Shown here piece by piece: positions 3,393 through 54,379 of a stretch of DNA of 64,000 nt (the stretch's first letter is position 1; the number at the start of each line of letters is the position of its first letter). The notes beneath the pieces are model-generated. The model was not told the origin of the DNA and searched no databases. It was given only the letters and a program-made list of their open reading frames with translations. The translations under genes and the position numbers were made by a program. Origin of the DNA: Piscirickettsiaceae bacterium (lineage in GTDB: Bacteria > Pseudomonadota > Gammaproteobacteria > Nitrosococcales > Methylophagaceae); the NCBI GenBank assembly GCA_013215805.1, contig JABSQM010000005.1:62001-126000 (forward strand), written 5' to 3'.

Positions 3393-5993
3393 ATGACTGA
3401 TACCGATTTTAAGGTAGATACAATAGTAATTGAGGAGGAGATGAAGCAATCTTATCTAGATTATGCCATGAGTGTAATCGTAGGTCGTGCTTTACCTGAT
3501 GTACGCGATGGATTAAAGCCAGTACATAGACGTGTCCTATATGCGATGCGCGAGTTGGGTAATAATTGGAATGGCTCTTATAAAAAATCCGCTCGTATTG
3601 TTGGTGATGTTATTGGTAAATACCATCCTCATGGTGATACTGCTGTTTATGATACTATGGTGCGTATGGCTCAACCATTTTCTATGCGTTATATGCTAGT
3701 AGATGGTCAAGGCAATTTTGGTTCGGTTGATGGTGATTCACCGGCGGCTATGCGTTATACCGAAGTTCGCATGACCAAAATTACTCATGAGATATTAGAT
3801 GACTTAGATAAGGAAACGGTTGATTTTGTTACTAACTATGATGGCTCAGAAGATGAACCAGTGGTATTACCAACAAAAATACCTACATTATTAGTTAATG
3901 GCTCTAGTGGTATTGCTGTCGGTATGGCCACTAATGTTCCGCCACATAATTTGACCGAAATTTTGAATGCTTGCATTGCAATGGTTGATTGCCCGGATAT
4001 TAAAGTCGCTGACTTGATGCAACACATACCAGGCCCAGATTTTCCAACTGCGGCAATAATCAATGGCGCCGGAGGAATCATCGATGCCTATCGTACTGGG
4101 CGAGGCCGTGTTCATATTCGTGCCCGTGCGAATATTGAGAGTGATGATATTACTAAGCAGCAAAGTATTATTGTTTATGAGTTGCCCTATCAGGTTAATA
4201 AGGCACGTTTATTAGAAAAGATTTCCGAATTGGTTAAAGATAAAAAAATTGAGGGGATTTCAGCATTGCGTGACGAATCTGACAAGGATGGCATGCGTAT
4301 GGTGGTTCTTCTTAAGAATGGTGAAGTACCTGAGGTTATATTAAATAATTTATACAAACAAACTCAGATGCAAATAGTATTTAGTGTCAATATGGTAGCG
4401 ATTGTCGAAGGTCAACCACGGTTATTAAGTTTAAAGGAAATTCTTAACGCTTTTATTTGCCATCGCCGTGAAGTTGTGATTAATCGTTCTTTATATGAAT
4501 TGCGTAAAGCGCGTGATCGTGCGCATATATTAGAAGGTTTGGCTACAGCATTATTTAATATTGATGAAATTATCAAATTAATCAAATCATCGAATAATTC
4601 ATCTAAGGCGAAAGAGCTGTTTTTATCCCGTGGCTGGGTCTCAGGAATCATTTCATATATGCTCAGTGTTTCTGGTGCGGAAATTTCTCGTCCAGATGAT
4701 TTATCTGCTGAACTAGGCTTGGTTGACGATGCTTATTATCTATCTCCAGTGCAGGTTCAGGCTATTCTAGATATGCGTTTGCACCGTTTAACCAGTCTCG
4801 AACAGGATATAATATTAGGCGAGTACCGCAAAGTTTTAGCAAATATTTCTAAATTATTATCCATTTTAAGTGATCCAGATAATCTGATGAACGTTATTAG
4901 GAAGGAGCTTGTTGCGATAAGGAAAGAGCATGGAGACGCACGTCGTACTAAAATTTTGGATGGATATCTTGATTTAACGCTCGAAGATCTAATTACTGAA
5001 GAAAAAATGGTTGTGACTTTATCGCATGATGGTTATGCTAAAATACAGCGATTAGATATTTACCAGGCTCAGCGTCGAGGTGGCAAGGGCAAGATGGCAA
5101 CCTCGATGAAGGATGATGACTTCATTGAGCATTTATTCATTGCCAATACTCATGACAATTTATTATTTTTTTCCAGTGCTGGTAAAGTGTATTGGAAAAA
5201 GGTATATGAATTACCACAAGGTGGGCGTTTATCTAGAGGTAGACCAATGGTTAATCTGTTGCCTTTTGATGATAATGAGAAAATAAATGCAGTGTTGGCT
5301 ATTAGAATATTTGAAGCTGATAAATATATCTTTATGGCAACGGCATCAGGAATGGTAAAAAAAACGCCGTTAGTTTCTTATTCTCGTCCTCGCACTAATG
5401 GTATTATCGCGGTTAATATAAAGGATGGTGATCAACTGGTTAATGTTGCTCTAACTGATGGTAAGTCAGATATTATGCTGTTTAGTTCCGGAGGTAAGGT
5501 TATTCGCTTTCCTGAAGCTGATGTACGCTCAGTAGGGCGTATCTCTCGTGGTGTTCGTGGTATGCAAATTCCAGATGGACAACGCATTATCTCAATGATT
5601 ATAGTTCACCCTAAAGAGGGTGCTATTTTAACTGCAACAGAATTAGGTTTTGGTAAGCGTACTCAATTAGAGGAGTATCGAGTACAGGGGCGTGGTGGTC
5701 AGGGCATAATCTCTATACAGACATTGGAGCGTAATGGCAATGTAATTGGTGCCGTTCAAATTGCCGATAAAAGTCAAATCATGCTGATCACCGATGGTGG
5801 CACTTTGGTACGTACACCCGTCAAGGATGTATCAATGATTGGTCGTAATACTCAGGGAGTCAAATTAATAAATTTGACTAATAATGAAAAATTAGTTGGA
5901 TTGGAGCGAATTTTGGACGATGGCGATAACGACGATGTTGATACTGATCATCTAATGAATGCAGCGAAATTAGGTACAGGTATAAATTTTTAA
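3393..5993 (+). CDS. gyrA: DNA gyrase subunit A
   Basis: GyrA is the breakage-reunion subunit of the type II topoisomerase that introduces negative supercoils. The catalytic tyrosine is Tyr122 in AAMRYTE. The quinolone-determining region reads [11 protein letters not shown], with Thr83 and Asp87 in E. coli numbering; Thr83 is the natural residue in many gammaproteobacteria. The GyrA box QRRGGKG is present, followed by the six-bladed C-terminal beta-pinwheel repeats (for example [15 protein letters not shown]). At 866 residues it is slightly shorter than the E. coli protein because the acidic C-terminal tail is reduced. It is followed by pheA after 104 bases; the pseudomonad order gyrA-serC-pheA suggests serC was lost from between them. 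Full length with no frameshift. Confidence 0.98.
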
Positions 5994-50316: not shown

Positions 50317-51741
50317 ATGAAGCATTACAATTTATCTAAACTTTTTAAAATTTTATGCGCCTTGTTTCTGTTTAGCGTTAATTTAGAGGCAATGGATTTG
50401 CCTAACTTCACTGAATTGGTTGCTAATAATGGTGCAGCAGTCGTAAATATTAGTACTACCAAGAATAATCATGATCGCCAAATGCCGCGCTTTCCCCCAG
50501 GGATGCAAATTCCTGAAGGGACACCTTTTGATGAATTGTTTGAGCATTTTTTTAATTCACCAGGGAGACGTTCGCAGCCGTATGAATCACATTCATTAGG
50601 CTCAGGTTTTGTATTGTCATCGGATGGCTATATTTTAACTAACCACCATGTAATTAAAAATGCGGATAAAATCATTGTAAGATTTAGTGATCATAATGAG
50701 CTTGAAGCGAAAATATTAGGCAGCGATGATCGCAGTGATGTAGCACTGTTAAAAGTTGAAGCTACAAATTTGAGCTCGGTAAAATTCGGCGATTCTACTC
50801 AATTGAAGGTTGGTGAATGGGTTCTAGCTATCGGTTCACCATTCGGTTTCGATTATTCTGCAACTGCAGGTATTATCAGCGCATTAGGCCGTAGTTTACC
50901 TAGCGATAGTTATGTGCCATTTATTCAAACAGATGTTGCGATCAATCCAGGAAATTCTGGCGGACCCTTATTTAATATTAATGGTGAAGTAATAGGTATT
51001 AATTCACAGATATATAGCCGTACTGGTGGTTTTATGGGGTTATCATTTGCTATTCCGATGGATATAGCAATGGATGTAGTTGCTCAGATAAAGGCCCAAG
51101 GATATGTTAGTCGCGGTTGGTTAGGCGTGGCCATTCAGAATGTAACCCATGAATTAGCAGAATCATTCGGTCTGGAAAAGCCGCGTGGAGCTTTAGTGTC
51201 AAAGGTATTGACGGGTAGTCCAGCCGCAAAGGCAGGTTTAGAGCCCGGTGATATCATCTTGACATTCGATAGTAAGATAGTCTTAACATCATCCGCATTG
51301 CCTCCCATTGTAGGACGTACGTTAATAGGAAAATCTGTTGATATTATGGTTATGCGTAATAATACGCGTAAGATAATTCAGGTGACAATTAAGGAGCTAC
51401 CTAAAAGTGATGAGATGGCAAGATATAATGGCAATATGGGATTCTCAATAGATGATCGTTTAGCAATTGAGATTGTAAATTTAAGCAATGAACAGCGTGA
51501 AAATTTCACCATACCTAATGGTGGAGTTGTCGTTGTAAAGGTTAGTTCAGGACACGCAGCTACTGCTGGACTTCGCCCTGGAGATTTAATTCTTAGCATT
51601 AACAATTATAAAATTACTGATACTAAACATTTTCTGGCGCTAACGAAAATCTTGCCAGAGGGTAAAGCCATCCCTTTATTAGTACATCGTGGTAATAGTG
51701 CTATTTTTCTAGCTTTGCGAATCACAAGTGGTGGAAAATAA
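50317..51741 (+). CDS. mucD: DegP-family periplasmic serine protease MucD
   Basis: MucD/DegP degrades and refolds misfolded envelope proteins. A signal peptide (about residues 1-25, ending LEA) precedes the trypsin-like domain, with catalytic His111 (TNHHVI), Asp141 (RSDVALLKVE) and Ser214 (NPGNSGGPL). Two PDZ domains follow (RGWLGVAIQNV with GLEPGDIILTF, and GGVVVVKVSSG with GLRPGDLILSIN). AGAGGAG just before the ATG is a strong ribosome binding site. At 474 residues it is standard for MucD. It survives although the sigma-E regulators that normally control it are decayed, which points to continued need for envelope quality control. Confidence 0.95.
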   Translation: MKHYNLSKLFKILCALFLFSVNLEAMDLPNFTELVANNGAAVVNISTTKNNHDRQMPRFPPGMQIPEGTPFDELFEHFFNSPGRRSQPYESHSLGSGFVLSSDGYILTNHHVIKNADKIIVRFSDHNELEAKILGSDDRSDVALLKVEATNLSSVKFGDSTQLKVGEWVLAIGSPFGFDYSATAGIISALGRSLPSDSYVPFIQTDVAINPGNSGGPLFNINGEVIGINSQIYSRTGGFMGLSFAIPMDIAMDVVAQIKAQGYVSRGWLGVAIQNVTHELAESFGLEKPRGALVSKVLTGSPAAKAGLEPGDIILTFDSKIVLTSSALPPIVGRTLIGKSVDIMVMRNNTRKIIQVTIKELPKSDEMARYNGNMGFSIDDRLAIEIVNLSNEQRENFTIPNGGVVVVKVSSGHAATAGLRPGDLILSINNYKITDTKHFLALTKILPEGKAIPLLVHRGNSAIFLALRITSGGK

Positions 51742-51819
51742 ATAATTAGTAATATAAATTTTGGTAGACACAAATCTTATTTTACGGATCAAATTTATTG
51801 CTAATTTATATTTCTGGTA

Positions 51820-51841
51820 TCTAGGTTTAGATTAACCTAGA
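51820..51841 (+). terminator. Hairpin downstream of mucD
   Basis: TCTAGGTT and AACCTAGA pair perfectly over 8 bases around a 6-base loop, about 80 bases past the mucD stop. There is no T-run after it, so intrinsic termination is only possible, not shown. Confidence 0.35.
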
Positions 51842-51969
51842 CACTAGGAATGGAGTGGCTATCAATATATTAAAAATATTATGATTGTTGGAAGTAATGA
51901 CTGTACTTAATTAAATCAATCAATATTCACATAACGAAAGATTTAAATATAGATATAATTTCAAGTATA

Positions 51970-52086
51970 CTATGACATAATCAAACCGTAGGCGACCAAT
52001 GCTATCCAAATAGCTGAAAAAGCCACAATAATATTTGTAAAGGAATTAACAAAAAATTTTTCTAGTGATTTCATAAGTGATTTCAT
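51970..52086 (-). CDS. Small single-span membrane protein, 38 residues
   Basis: A short open frame below the usual length cutoffs. On the minus strand AAGGA sits exactly 6 bases before the ATG at 52086, an ideal ribosome binding site. The product begins MKSLMKSLEKFFVNSF, an amphipathic basic start, then a hydrophobic stretch NIIVAFSAIWIALVAYGLIM that would span a membrane. The MKSL repeat arises from a 12-base tandem duplication (AGTGATTTCATA twice on the plus strand), so two start codons exist. It resembles the architecture of tiny subunits of respiratory or transport complexes, but I recognise no family. It is the only protein-like open frame with a good ribosome binding site in an otherwise eroded gap, which argues for a real gene. 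Confidence 0.5.
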   Translation of the reverse strand: MKSLMKSLEKFFVNSFTNIIVAFSAIWIALVAYGLIMS

Positions 52087-52617
52087 AAATGTTCCTTGAA
52101 TTAATTAATTATTTAAATAATTTTTACTTAAAAAATAGTTTATTGTAATATACCTTATGTTGATTCGGATTAATATATGAATATTTCAGTGAAGAATATA
52201 ATGTTATCAATTTATTAATTATGCTATGTTGGAGATAAGAACAATTGTATAAGTTTTAGACTTGATTTTTAATCAATTATCTTAGTTATATTATTTTATA
52301 GATGATTTTTCTTAATAAATAATATTATTGGGAGTAGCCCCATATGATATATACTTTATTTCGTGCATTGTTTGTTAAATATTAACATTATTGCAACGTT
52401 GATTTTAACAATAAGAACATGTAATATCCTACCTGATAAAAACCACAGATCTGATAGTAGATAACTCCTTTCAGGATGTTTATCAGTTATGAAATGTGAG
52501 ATACATATTGTATATGTTAACCCGTAATATATTGCATATTTGAATACATAGTGATTTTAGCTGATATAAGTCACTATAAAATTCATTGTTCTGTCTCTTA
52601 ATTATTTTTATTTTTTT
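52087..52617. other. Gap between small ORF and tRNA-Asn
   Basis: Nothing recognisable in 530 AT-rich bases. It should contain the promoter of the small ORF on the minus strand and the end of the tRNA-Asn transcript. Confidence 0.4.
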
Positions 52618-52693
52618 TGGCTCCCCGAGCTGGACTCGAACCAGCGACCCAATGATTAACAGTCATTTGCTCTACCAACTGAGCTATCGGGGA
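52618..52693 (-). tRNA. tRNA-Asn (GTT)
   Basis: Read on the minus strand, the sequence folds into a full cloverleaf: acceptor stem TCCCCGA/TCGGGGA, D arm GCTCAGTTGGTAGAGC, anticodon arm AATGA-CTGTTAA-TCATT with anticodon GTT, and T arm GCTGG-TTCGAGT-CCAGC. The discriminator is G and a CCA end is encoded (52618-52620). This identifies asparagine tRNA. Confidence 0.97.
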
Positions 52694-52757
52694 ATTAAGT
52701 TGGTAATTATGATAGTGATTCTGTTTTTGTTGGTCAAGATAAAATTTAATATTTATT

Positions 52758-53942
52758 CTACCTGATGAAACTTTTAATTCTGTTCAATGCAGTCCTCAGA
52801 TTATCCTCATTTGTAGTAATAGATAATCGTATGTGACCTTTGCATCCAAATGCTGTGCCTGGAATGACTGCGATACCCTTGTCAACTAACAATGCTTCGG
52901 CAAAATCAATATCATCTTTCCACTTGGATTTATGACGTAGTATTTTATCAATGCTAGGAAAAACATAGAAGGTTCCATCAGTATTAAGACAGTTGCTTCC
53001 ATTCATGTCATTAAGTTCTGCCACTACATAATCATGACGCTTTTTAAACTCAATCAGCATAGTATCGATGAAGGATTGATCGCCATTTAATGCTTCAAGT
53101 GCAGCAACTTGGGAAATGGATGTTGGATTAGACGTACTTTGTGATTGAATTGTTTTCATCGCATTAATTAAATTCATAGGTCCAGCTGCATACCCTATTC
53201 TCCAACCTGTCATTGAGTAAGCTTTGGATACGCCATTTAACACTATTGTTCTGTCATAAAGATCAGGGCAAGCCATGATAATATTGTGGAATTTTTCTTT
53301 TGCCCAGAAAATATGTTCGTATATATCATCAGTGGCGATTAACACATTGGGGTATTCACGTAATACTTCACCTAATGAGATTAATTCATCTCTTTTATAA
53401 GCCATTCCGGTTGGATTTGAGGGACTATTAATAACTAATAGACGTGTTTTATCTGTAATTGCTGTTTTTAATTGTTCCGGTGTGATTTTAAAATTTTGTT
53501 CTTGATAGCCATTAACAATGACGGGTACACCATCAGCCAGTAAAATTATATCTGGGTATGAAGTCCAATATGGAGCTAAGATAATAGCCTCATCACCTTT
53601 TTCTAATAGTGCTTGGCTTAAATTGAAAAAGCTTTGTTTTCCACCGCTCGAAACCAGTACTTGATTGAATTGGTAATTAAGATTGTTATCACGTGATAAT
53701 TTATCAATAATAGCTTGCTTTAATTCAGAAATACCGTCAACCGGTGTATATTTAGTGAAGCCACTATTAATTGCTGCAATTGCGGCTTGCTTAATGTTCT
53801 CGGGTGTATCGAAATCTGGTTCACCTGCTCCTAAGCCAATGATGCCTCTTCCTTCTTGTTTAAGTATATTAGCACGAGCAGTAATTGTAAGTGTAGGGGA
53901 GGGTTTAATATTTTTAACGCGTTGTGCGAGTTTGATATCCAA
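52758..53942 (-). CDS. aspC: Class I PLP-dependent aspartate aminotransferase
   Basis: A fold type I aminotransferase of the Aat/I-alpha branch that makes aspartate from oxaloacetate and glutamate. The N-terminus carries KPSPTLTITARA and GLGAGEPDFDTP; SPSNPTGMAY holds the substrate-binding Asn; the PLP lysine is in NGVSKAYSMTGWRIGY. 394 residues. I place the start at TTG 53942 because AAGGAG precedes it by 6 bases and relatives begin at this DIKLAQRV position. An ATG 15 bases upstream has no binding site and its codons are the binding site itself. In pseudomonads it neighbours uvrB divergently, as the dead uvrB here confirms. It may link with the oad genes through oxaloacetate. Confidence 0.93.
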   Translation of the reverse strand: MDIKLAQRVKNIKPSPTLTITARANILKQEGRGIIGLGAGEPDFDTPENIKQAAIAAINSGFTKYTPVDGISELKQAIIDKLSRDNNLNYQFNQVLVSSGGKQSFFNLSQALLEKGDEAIILAPYWTSYPDIILLADGVPVIVNGYQEQNFKITPEQLKTAITDKTRLLVINSPSNPTGMAYKRDELISLGEVLREYPNVLIATDDIYEHIFWAKEKFHNIIMACPDLYDRTIVLNGVSKAYSMTGWRIGYAAGPMNLINAMKTIQSQSTSNPTSISQVAALEALNGDQSFIDTMLIEFKKRHDYVVAELNDMNGSNCLNTDGTFYVFPSIDKILRHKSKWKDDIDFAEALLVDKGIAVIPGTAFGCKGHIRLSITTNEDNLRTALNRIKSFIR

Positions 53943-54379
53943 GAAACTCTCCTTCATAAAAACACGATGATTAAGATAATGGATAGTATAACGGAACGGG
54001 AACTACACTGAAGATATATAAGCAAACAATTTAAATCGGTGAATAATATCTTGCTTCTAATGATCATCCAATGGCAATTAAATATTTAGTTATAGATCTA
54101 AAGCGTGGGAAAAATGTGTTAAATTTTATCAGAAATGATTGGAGGTCTAGAAAATTCCACTGTAACAGTGTCGCACAAATATACCAAAAATAAGCTATGG
54201 CGTTAACGACTGATGAAACACTGAACAGCTTAGTATACCGCGAGATAGAGTAATTATTGTATAATATTGAGGAATATTTTGTATTATAATGTAACTGCTA
54301 TCATATCGAAGATTATGTTCCTTTATGGTCTATTTTTATAGACAAAAATGTATCAATGAATGATCAAATGACACGAATG
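53943..54379. other. Upstream region of aspC, likely eroded start of uvrB
   Basis: No intact gene in these roughly 440 bases. By position it should contain the lost 5' part of uvrB and the aspC promoter. No motif of the UvrB N-terminus was readable. Confidence 0.4.
53949..53954 (-). promoter_or_regulatory. aspC ribosome binding site, decides a TTG start
   Basis: AAGGAG on the minus strand lies six bases before the TTG at 53942. The site is inside the first codons of the longer ATG-started reading, which makes that longer reading unlikely. Confidence 0.75.

Follow-up and report, generated by a model that had tools for sequence, protein, structure and literature searches.

A tandem pair of genes for tiny membrane proteins in the Methylophagaceae and their possible connection with the cbb3 oxidase

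The locus and its predicted product

The window, that is, the whole stretch of 64,000 nucleotides that was analysed, carries a short frame on its minus strand between mucD and a tRNA-Asn gene (Table 1). It had been picked out from the letters of the sequence as a candidate gene for a 38-residue membrane protein, and the signals on which this first-pass annotation relied are all present. On the minus strand, an AAGGA at 52097-52093 is followed by the six-base spacer ACATTT and an ATG at 52086, and the stretch 51970-52086 reads MKSLMKSLEKFFVNSFTNIIVAFSAIWIALVAYGLIMS, then TAG. The gap had been described as free of another protein-like frame with a good ribosome binding site, and no other frame with a detectable relative was found in 51742-52617. 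The 12-base tandem duplication noticed at the start of the coding sequence is real as a repeat, with the correction that its two copies (ATGAAATCACTT and ATGAAATCACTA) agree in 11 and not in all 12 positions.

Table 1. Features in and around the short frame, in window coordinates.
Feature	Position	Strand	Basis or remark
mucD	50317-51741	plus	Name read from the sequence, without a family scan
Coding sequence, 38 aa from the first ATG, B-type	51970..52086	minus	B model 57.9 bits, A model 48.1 bits
34-aa core, alignable across the whole family	51970..52074	minus	Begins at the second ATG
Tandem 12-base duplication, 11/12 identical, MKSL twice	52063..52086	minus	Sequence read directly
Shine-Dalgarno AAGGA	52093..52097	minus	6 bases 5' of the first ATG, 18 of the second
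-10-like TATTTT, 4/6	52132..52137	minus	22 bases past the box, the family-conserved offset
Decayed Fnr box TTAATCCGAATCAA, 1 mismatch to TTGATNNNNATCAA	52160..52173	minus	Upstream motif scan
tRNA-Asn	52618-52693	minus	Flanking gene
aspC-like aminotransferase	52758-53957	minus	Name read from the sequence, without a family scan

The hydrophobic span that had been noted was recovered with a Kyte-Doolittle maximum of 2.47 over 19 residues, and AlphaFold gave the window protein a single helix from residue 2 to residue 37 (pLDDT 91.8). As modelled, the product would cross the membrane once, by a hydrophobic helix some 20 residues long. The start shared by the family aligns to the second ATG (52074), a point that the first-pass annotation overlooked, and MKSL at residues 1-4 is thus a local addition. 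Because the duplication preserves the 6-base distance between the ribosome site and the upstream ATG, we infer that the 38-residue form is likely to be the actual product. Within this form, F16 and G34 are invariant among 29 members of the family, and I20, W27, L30 and L35 are nearly so.

Distribution and conservation of the family

A search for relatives of the 38-residue product gave matches in 37 of the 58 genomes searched (E up to 10), of which the best outside the window genome (E 5e-10) belongs to the same genus. With a 29-member profile, convincing matches were obtained in 44 of all 57 genomes of the Methylophagaceae, a gammaproteobacterial family of marine methanol users; the best relatives reach about E 1e-18 with this profile, and the window gene matches it at E 2.9e-18. 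Among six genomes of the order's other family, none had a match better than E 0.2. In a sample of 369 genomes of the class, strong matches were obtained only in the four Methylophagaceae genomes that it included, and the next-best match (E 0.001) was a frame interrupted by a stop. Additionally, a pattern scan returned 28 stretches, including four titled outside the Gammaproteobacteria (two Armatimonadota, one Phaeodactylibacter and one archaeon), which may be chance or mis-binned sequences. Substitutions within the family are mostly synonymous, with a pooled pN/pS of 0.19 over 124 non-independent pairs. To judge from these sequence comparisons, the 38-residue frame is almost certainly a real protein-coding gene under purifying selection.

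The expectation of a conserved but usually unannotated gene agrees with its occurrence in 44 of the 57 family genomes and with the fact that no Pfam or NCBIfam model covers the family; the word unannotated refers here to this absence of family models, the relatives' own annotation aside. In Pfam, the matches of the window protein (SPT_ssu-like at E 0.017, and others) lay far under the cut-offs and each concerned one or two of the 29 members. NCBIfam gave no match for the window protein, with a CcmD-type model appearing only at E 9. The profile of the family, named A/B after its two types of member, had no sequence match in the PDB, and matches in PHROGs were weak and scattered. A literature search, which had most subscription papers outside its reach, found no description of the A/B family.

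Two paralogues with different promoters

The analysis identified 82 members (39 A, 40 B and three S genes), which are distributed over 48 loci and 44 genomes. The A and B models, which were built from the same pairs that they classify, sort the pair members consistently, and the label S was given where the model scores were not clearly of either type. A is followed by B on one strand in 34 of the 48 loci; this sister gene and the pairing had not been noticed in the first-pass annotation. Other arrangements include A and B far apart on the same contig (G017), a B-like gene only (the window genome, G000, and G004), an A-like gene only (G005) and a single S gene (G006, G027 and G063). In the gap around the window frame, no remnant of A was found among the matches listed.

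The spacer between A and B, usually about 165 bases long, measures 323 bases in G023 (L083, C38) and holds an insert with repeated ends there, and the assembly breaks between the two genes in G018, G060 and G070. Judging from the insert and the three breaks, small repeats may tend to land in this spacer.

The 140 bases upstream of each gene were scanned for the Fnr box TTGATNNNNATCAA. A box that departs from this motif at no more than one position precedes 38 of the 39 B genes scanned, 20 of these boxes being perfect, while the B box of G018 has two mismatches; the 40th B gene lies too close to a contig end and was left out. Among the 39 A genes, only those of G018, G023 and G065 have a box, which lies some 30 bases ahead of the start codon, and none of the three S genes has one. 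Past the B box, the match to a -10 element peaks at 22 bases (mean 4.1 of 6, against 1-2.8 at most other offsets), and in 30 of the 39 genes four or more of the six bases match at an offset of 21-23. This peak puts the box centre near -41.5, the class II Fnr position. Across the family, B almost certainly carries the geometry of an Fnr-activated promoter, as read from its upstream sequence.

The A genes are preceded by a different signal. An extended -10 (TGnTAWnnT, within 100 bases upstream) was found before 37 of the 39 A genes (shuffle mean 4.7), compared with 3 of 39 B genes (shuffle mean 4.0) and all three S genes. Furthermore, A is followed by a terminator-like hairpin with a T run in 28 of the 34 pairs under a strict test. 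A tandem A/B pair with different promoters is an almost certain feature of the family as a whole. The B-like gene of G004 occupies the place of A and has an A-type promoter, its box match lying inside SulP.

In one Methylophaga subgroup (G015, G013, G024 and G072; loci L111, L109, L113 and L110), both A and B have diverged. The conserved tryptophan of B is replaced by Cys, YGL is changed to FGL in B and to IGW in A, the terminator after A fails the strict test, and the Fnr box before B is perfect.

The box of the window copy (shuffle p 0.025) was likewise overlooked in the first reading of the locus. Its centre lies about 80 nt before the first ATG; in the remaining B genes, G004 apart, this distance is 66-87 nt. 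With one mismatch in the box and no Fnr found in the genome, the window copy is not classed as Fnr-activated, and in the absence of a detected Fnr its box has probably fallen out of use.

Type I toxin loci typically hold very small hydrophobic frames in tandem, and the arrangement described here would fit a hydrophobic peptide pair of that type. We nevertheless give this reading very little credence, in view of the vertical inheritance within one family, the strong purifying selection, the conserved F, W, L and G positions, the Fnr promoter geometry and the survival of a member in a reduced genome. An Rfam scan of window positions 51700-52750, in which the tRNA was the sole match, also argues against it.

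Gene order around the pair

Synteny with mucD, tRNA-Asn or aspC, which had been put forward as a check on the gene, was found in none of the 47 other loci (four frames on each side). With neighbour names taken from Pfam matches, the ancestral order was likely lexA, SulP, A, B, then ppsA and/or a HEAT-repeat gene and rlmD. SulP lies directly upstream of A/B, at 56-81 bases and on the same strand, in 12 loci; since these are spread over all four genera, the SulP-adjacent site may be the ancestral place. Presence of A/B is also related to that of SulP at any distance, with a p value of 0.04 that ignores kinship and assembly gaps.

The adjacency could point to A and B as small proteins that work with the SulP anion transporter, but SulP is not adjacent in the remaining 36 loci and a close SulP (81% identity or more) is missing from 32 of the 44 A/B genomes. 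The window genome, in turn, has no SulP candidate, and its HEAT neighbour was not detected either. A partnership with SulP is therefore most improbable.

Association with ccoN and Fnr

Across the 57 genomes, A/B and ccoN occur together in 44, ccoN occurs alone in nine, neither is present in four, and A/B never occur without ccoN (Fisher p 0.0018, with kinship and assembly gaps ignored). The downstream HEAT-repeat neighbour could be placed in four of the nine ccoN-bearing genomes without A/B (G012, G026, G061 and G076), and in all four the expected A/B place runs off the contig; the remaining five are G067, G068, G071, G073 and G079. G014, G025 and G033 have another haem-copper oxidase and are without cbb3, A/B and Fnr. 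On our reading of the PF00115 scores this oxidase would be of the aa3 type, and the three genomes may form one clade. The loss is firm in G025, as its assembly comprises only three contigs. The A/B genes themselves sit outside the cco operon.

The ccoN promoters were also inspected. Nine loci were fetched, the ccoN of G004 not being picked up by the search motif, and an Fnr box with at most one mismatch was found in six of the eight loci read. In the window genome the box of the ccoN promoter is lost (three mismatches), and the second cco locus of G007 has a ccoN promoter without a box.

These patterns leave room for A/B to serve some other low-oxygen membrane complex (the bc1 complex, a dehydrogenase or a transporter) or general membrane stress, with shared Fnr control as the only tie to ccoN. 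The presence of Fnr does track that of A/B (p 0.0049, again with kinship and assembly gaps ignored), and the Fnr regulon was examined in minor part only. Against such a reading, the window genome has kept B with ccoN present and Fnr not found, G063 (67% complete; ccoN, no Fnr found) has a member, and G064 (81% complete; Fnr, no ccoN found) has none. We regard another complex as a genuine possibility, if on balance a doubtful one.

The window genome and the proposed role

The window genome is a Methylophagaceae genome of 1.15 Mb with an estimated completeness of 100%, and it looks strongly reduced; its two same-genus relatives have 2.1-2.4 Mb. The organism is perhaps a symbiont; PMC10199937 describes a member of the Methylophagaceae that lives in symbiosis with Idas mussels. 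No Fnr was found at E 1e-20 (NF008365), neither cydA nor an aa3 oxidase was found, and cbb3 (ccoN) is the only haem-copper oxidase identified. In G001, G007 and G012, ccoG is flanked by ccoH on one side and by the CcoM-like gene or ccoP on the other; the cco locus of the window genome (L133, G000:C23:284000-299000) lacks it at 5048-5377.

B has been retained in this genome although Fnr, SulP and the HEAT neighbour were not found. The window genome can be viewed as an experiment of nature, since no oxidase other than cbb3 was found and B alone is left, and the survival of B there without SulP or HEAT points indirectly to cbb3 as the partner. Alternatively, the window copy could be a decaying relic without function, given that its regulator was not found, its Fnr box is imperfect, its N-terminus is duplicated and A is lost. 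However, in a genome of 1.15 Mb the frame is intact and has preserved the residues that are conserved across the family (profile E 2.9e-18), which makes a relic improbable.

The explanation we prefer, with a confidence that falls just short of even, is that A/B is a very small protein with one helix that acts as an accessory of the cbb3 oxidase, as suggested by the phyletic and regulatory association. The Fnr promoter and the ccoN link lend weight to the analogy with respiratory subunits such as CydX and CcoQ that was drawn in the first-pass annotation, but they stop short of proof. The window frame itself is of the B type, within a family of predicted single-helix inner-membrane proteins of 34 residues that is specific to the Methylophagaceae, with tandem paralogues A and B as the putative ancestral state. 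A would be expressed from a constitutive-type promoter with an extended -10, and B from an Fnr-activated promoter used at low oxygen. Of this set, the reduced window genome has kept B and cbb3, searches for A, Fnr and other oxidases having been negative. A/B add a protein family that is absent from the family libraries searched and for which cbb3 is a clear, testable candidate partner.

A more specific version, which we consider speculative and rather unlikely, is that one cbb3 oxidase has two accessory-helix forms, with A present always and B only when Fnr senses low oxygen, the oxidase being adjusted through the exchange or addition of a 34-residue helix. Read as an isoform switch, the reduced genome, with no Fnr found and cbb3 as its sole oxidase, would have kept the low-oxygen form only. 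If A and B were a true isoform set, they would constitute a very small and simple means of fitting a respiratory enzyme to oxygen.

Comparison with known small oxidase proteins

CydX and YnhF are tiny subunits of cytochrome bd, and A/B resemble them in size (about 30-37 residues), in having one helix and in the proposed role as an oxidase accessory. Unlike them, A/B occur independently of cydA (p 0.75), as 23 of the 44 A/B genomes are without a cydA match. Cytochrome bd as the partner was ruled out by this phyletic pattern, and the search of the window genome for cydA was negative.

CcoQ and CcoS, like A/B, are short, have one membrane span and belong to cbb3 function. Both differ in having their own gene in the cco operon, where CcoQ, of 69-70 residues, is named by its position between ccoO and ccoP, and CcoS matches TIGR00847 at E 2.9e-17.

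PMC10433244 describes CcoM as a 36-residue subunit of the cbb3 oxidase of Pseudomonas stutzeri. It shares with A/B the character of a tiny protein tied to cbb3 and to oxygen limitation, but the window protein has no match to NF041600. That the window protein is itself CcoM was ruled out by a separate CcoM-like gene in the cco operon, a frame of 35-39 residues that follows ccoP in the window genome (L133:5378-5521) and in the cco loci of G001, G002, G007 and G016. Against NF041600, the G001 protein scored E 0.00084 and the frame of the window genome E 0.011, both under the 40-bit cut-off. As these CcoM-like frames score below the cut-off, CcoM may be wider spread than NF041600 shows.

Oxygen-dependent subunit isoforms are represented by Cox5a/5b in yeast and COX4-1/4-2 in mammals. 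These belong to eukaryotic aa3 oxidases, and what A/B have in common with them, no homology being claimed, is the occurrence of two paralogues under differing oxygen control.
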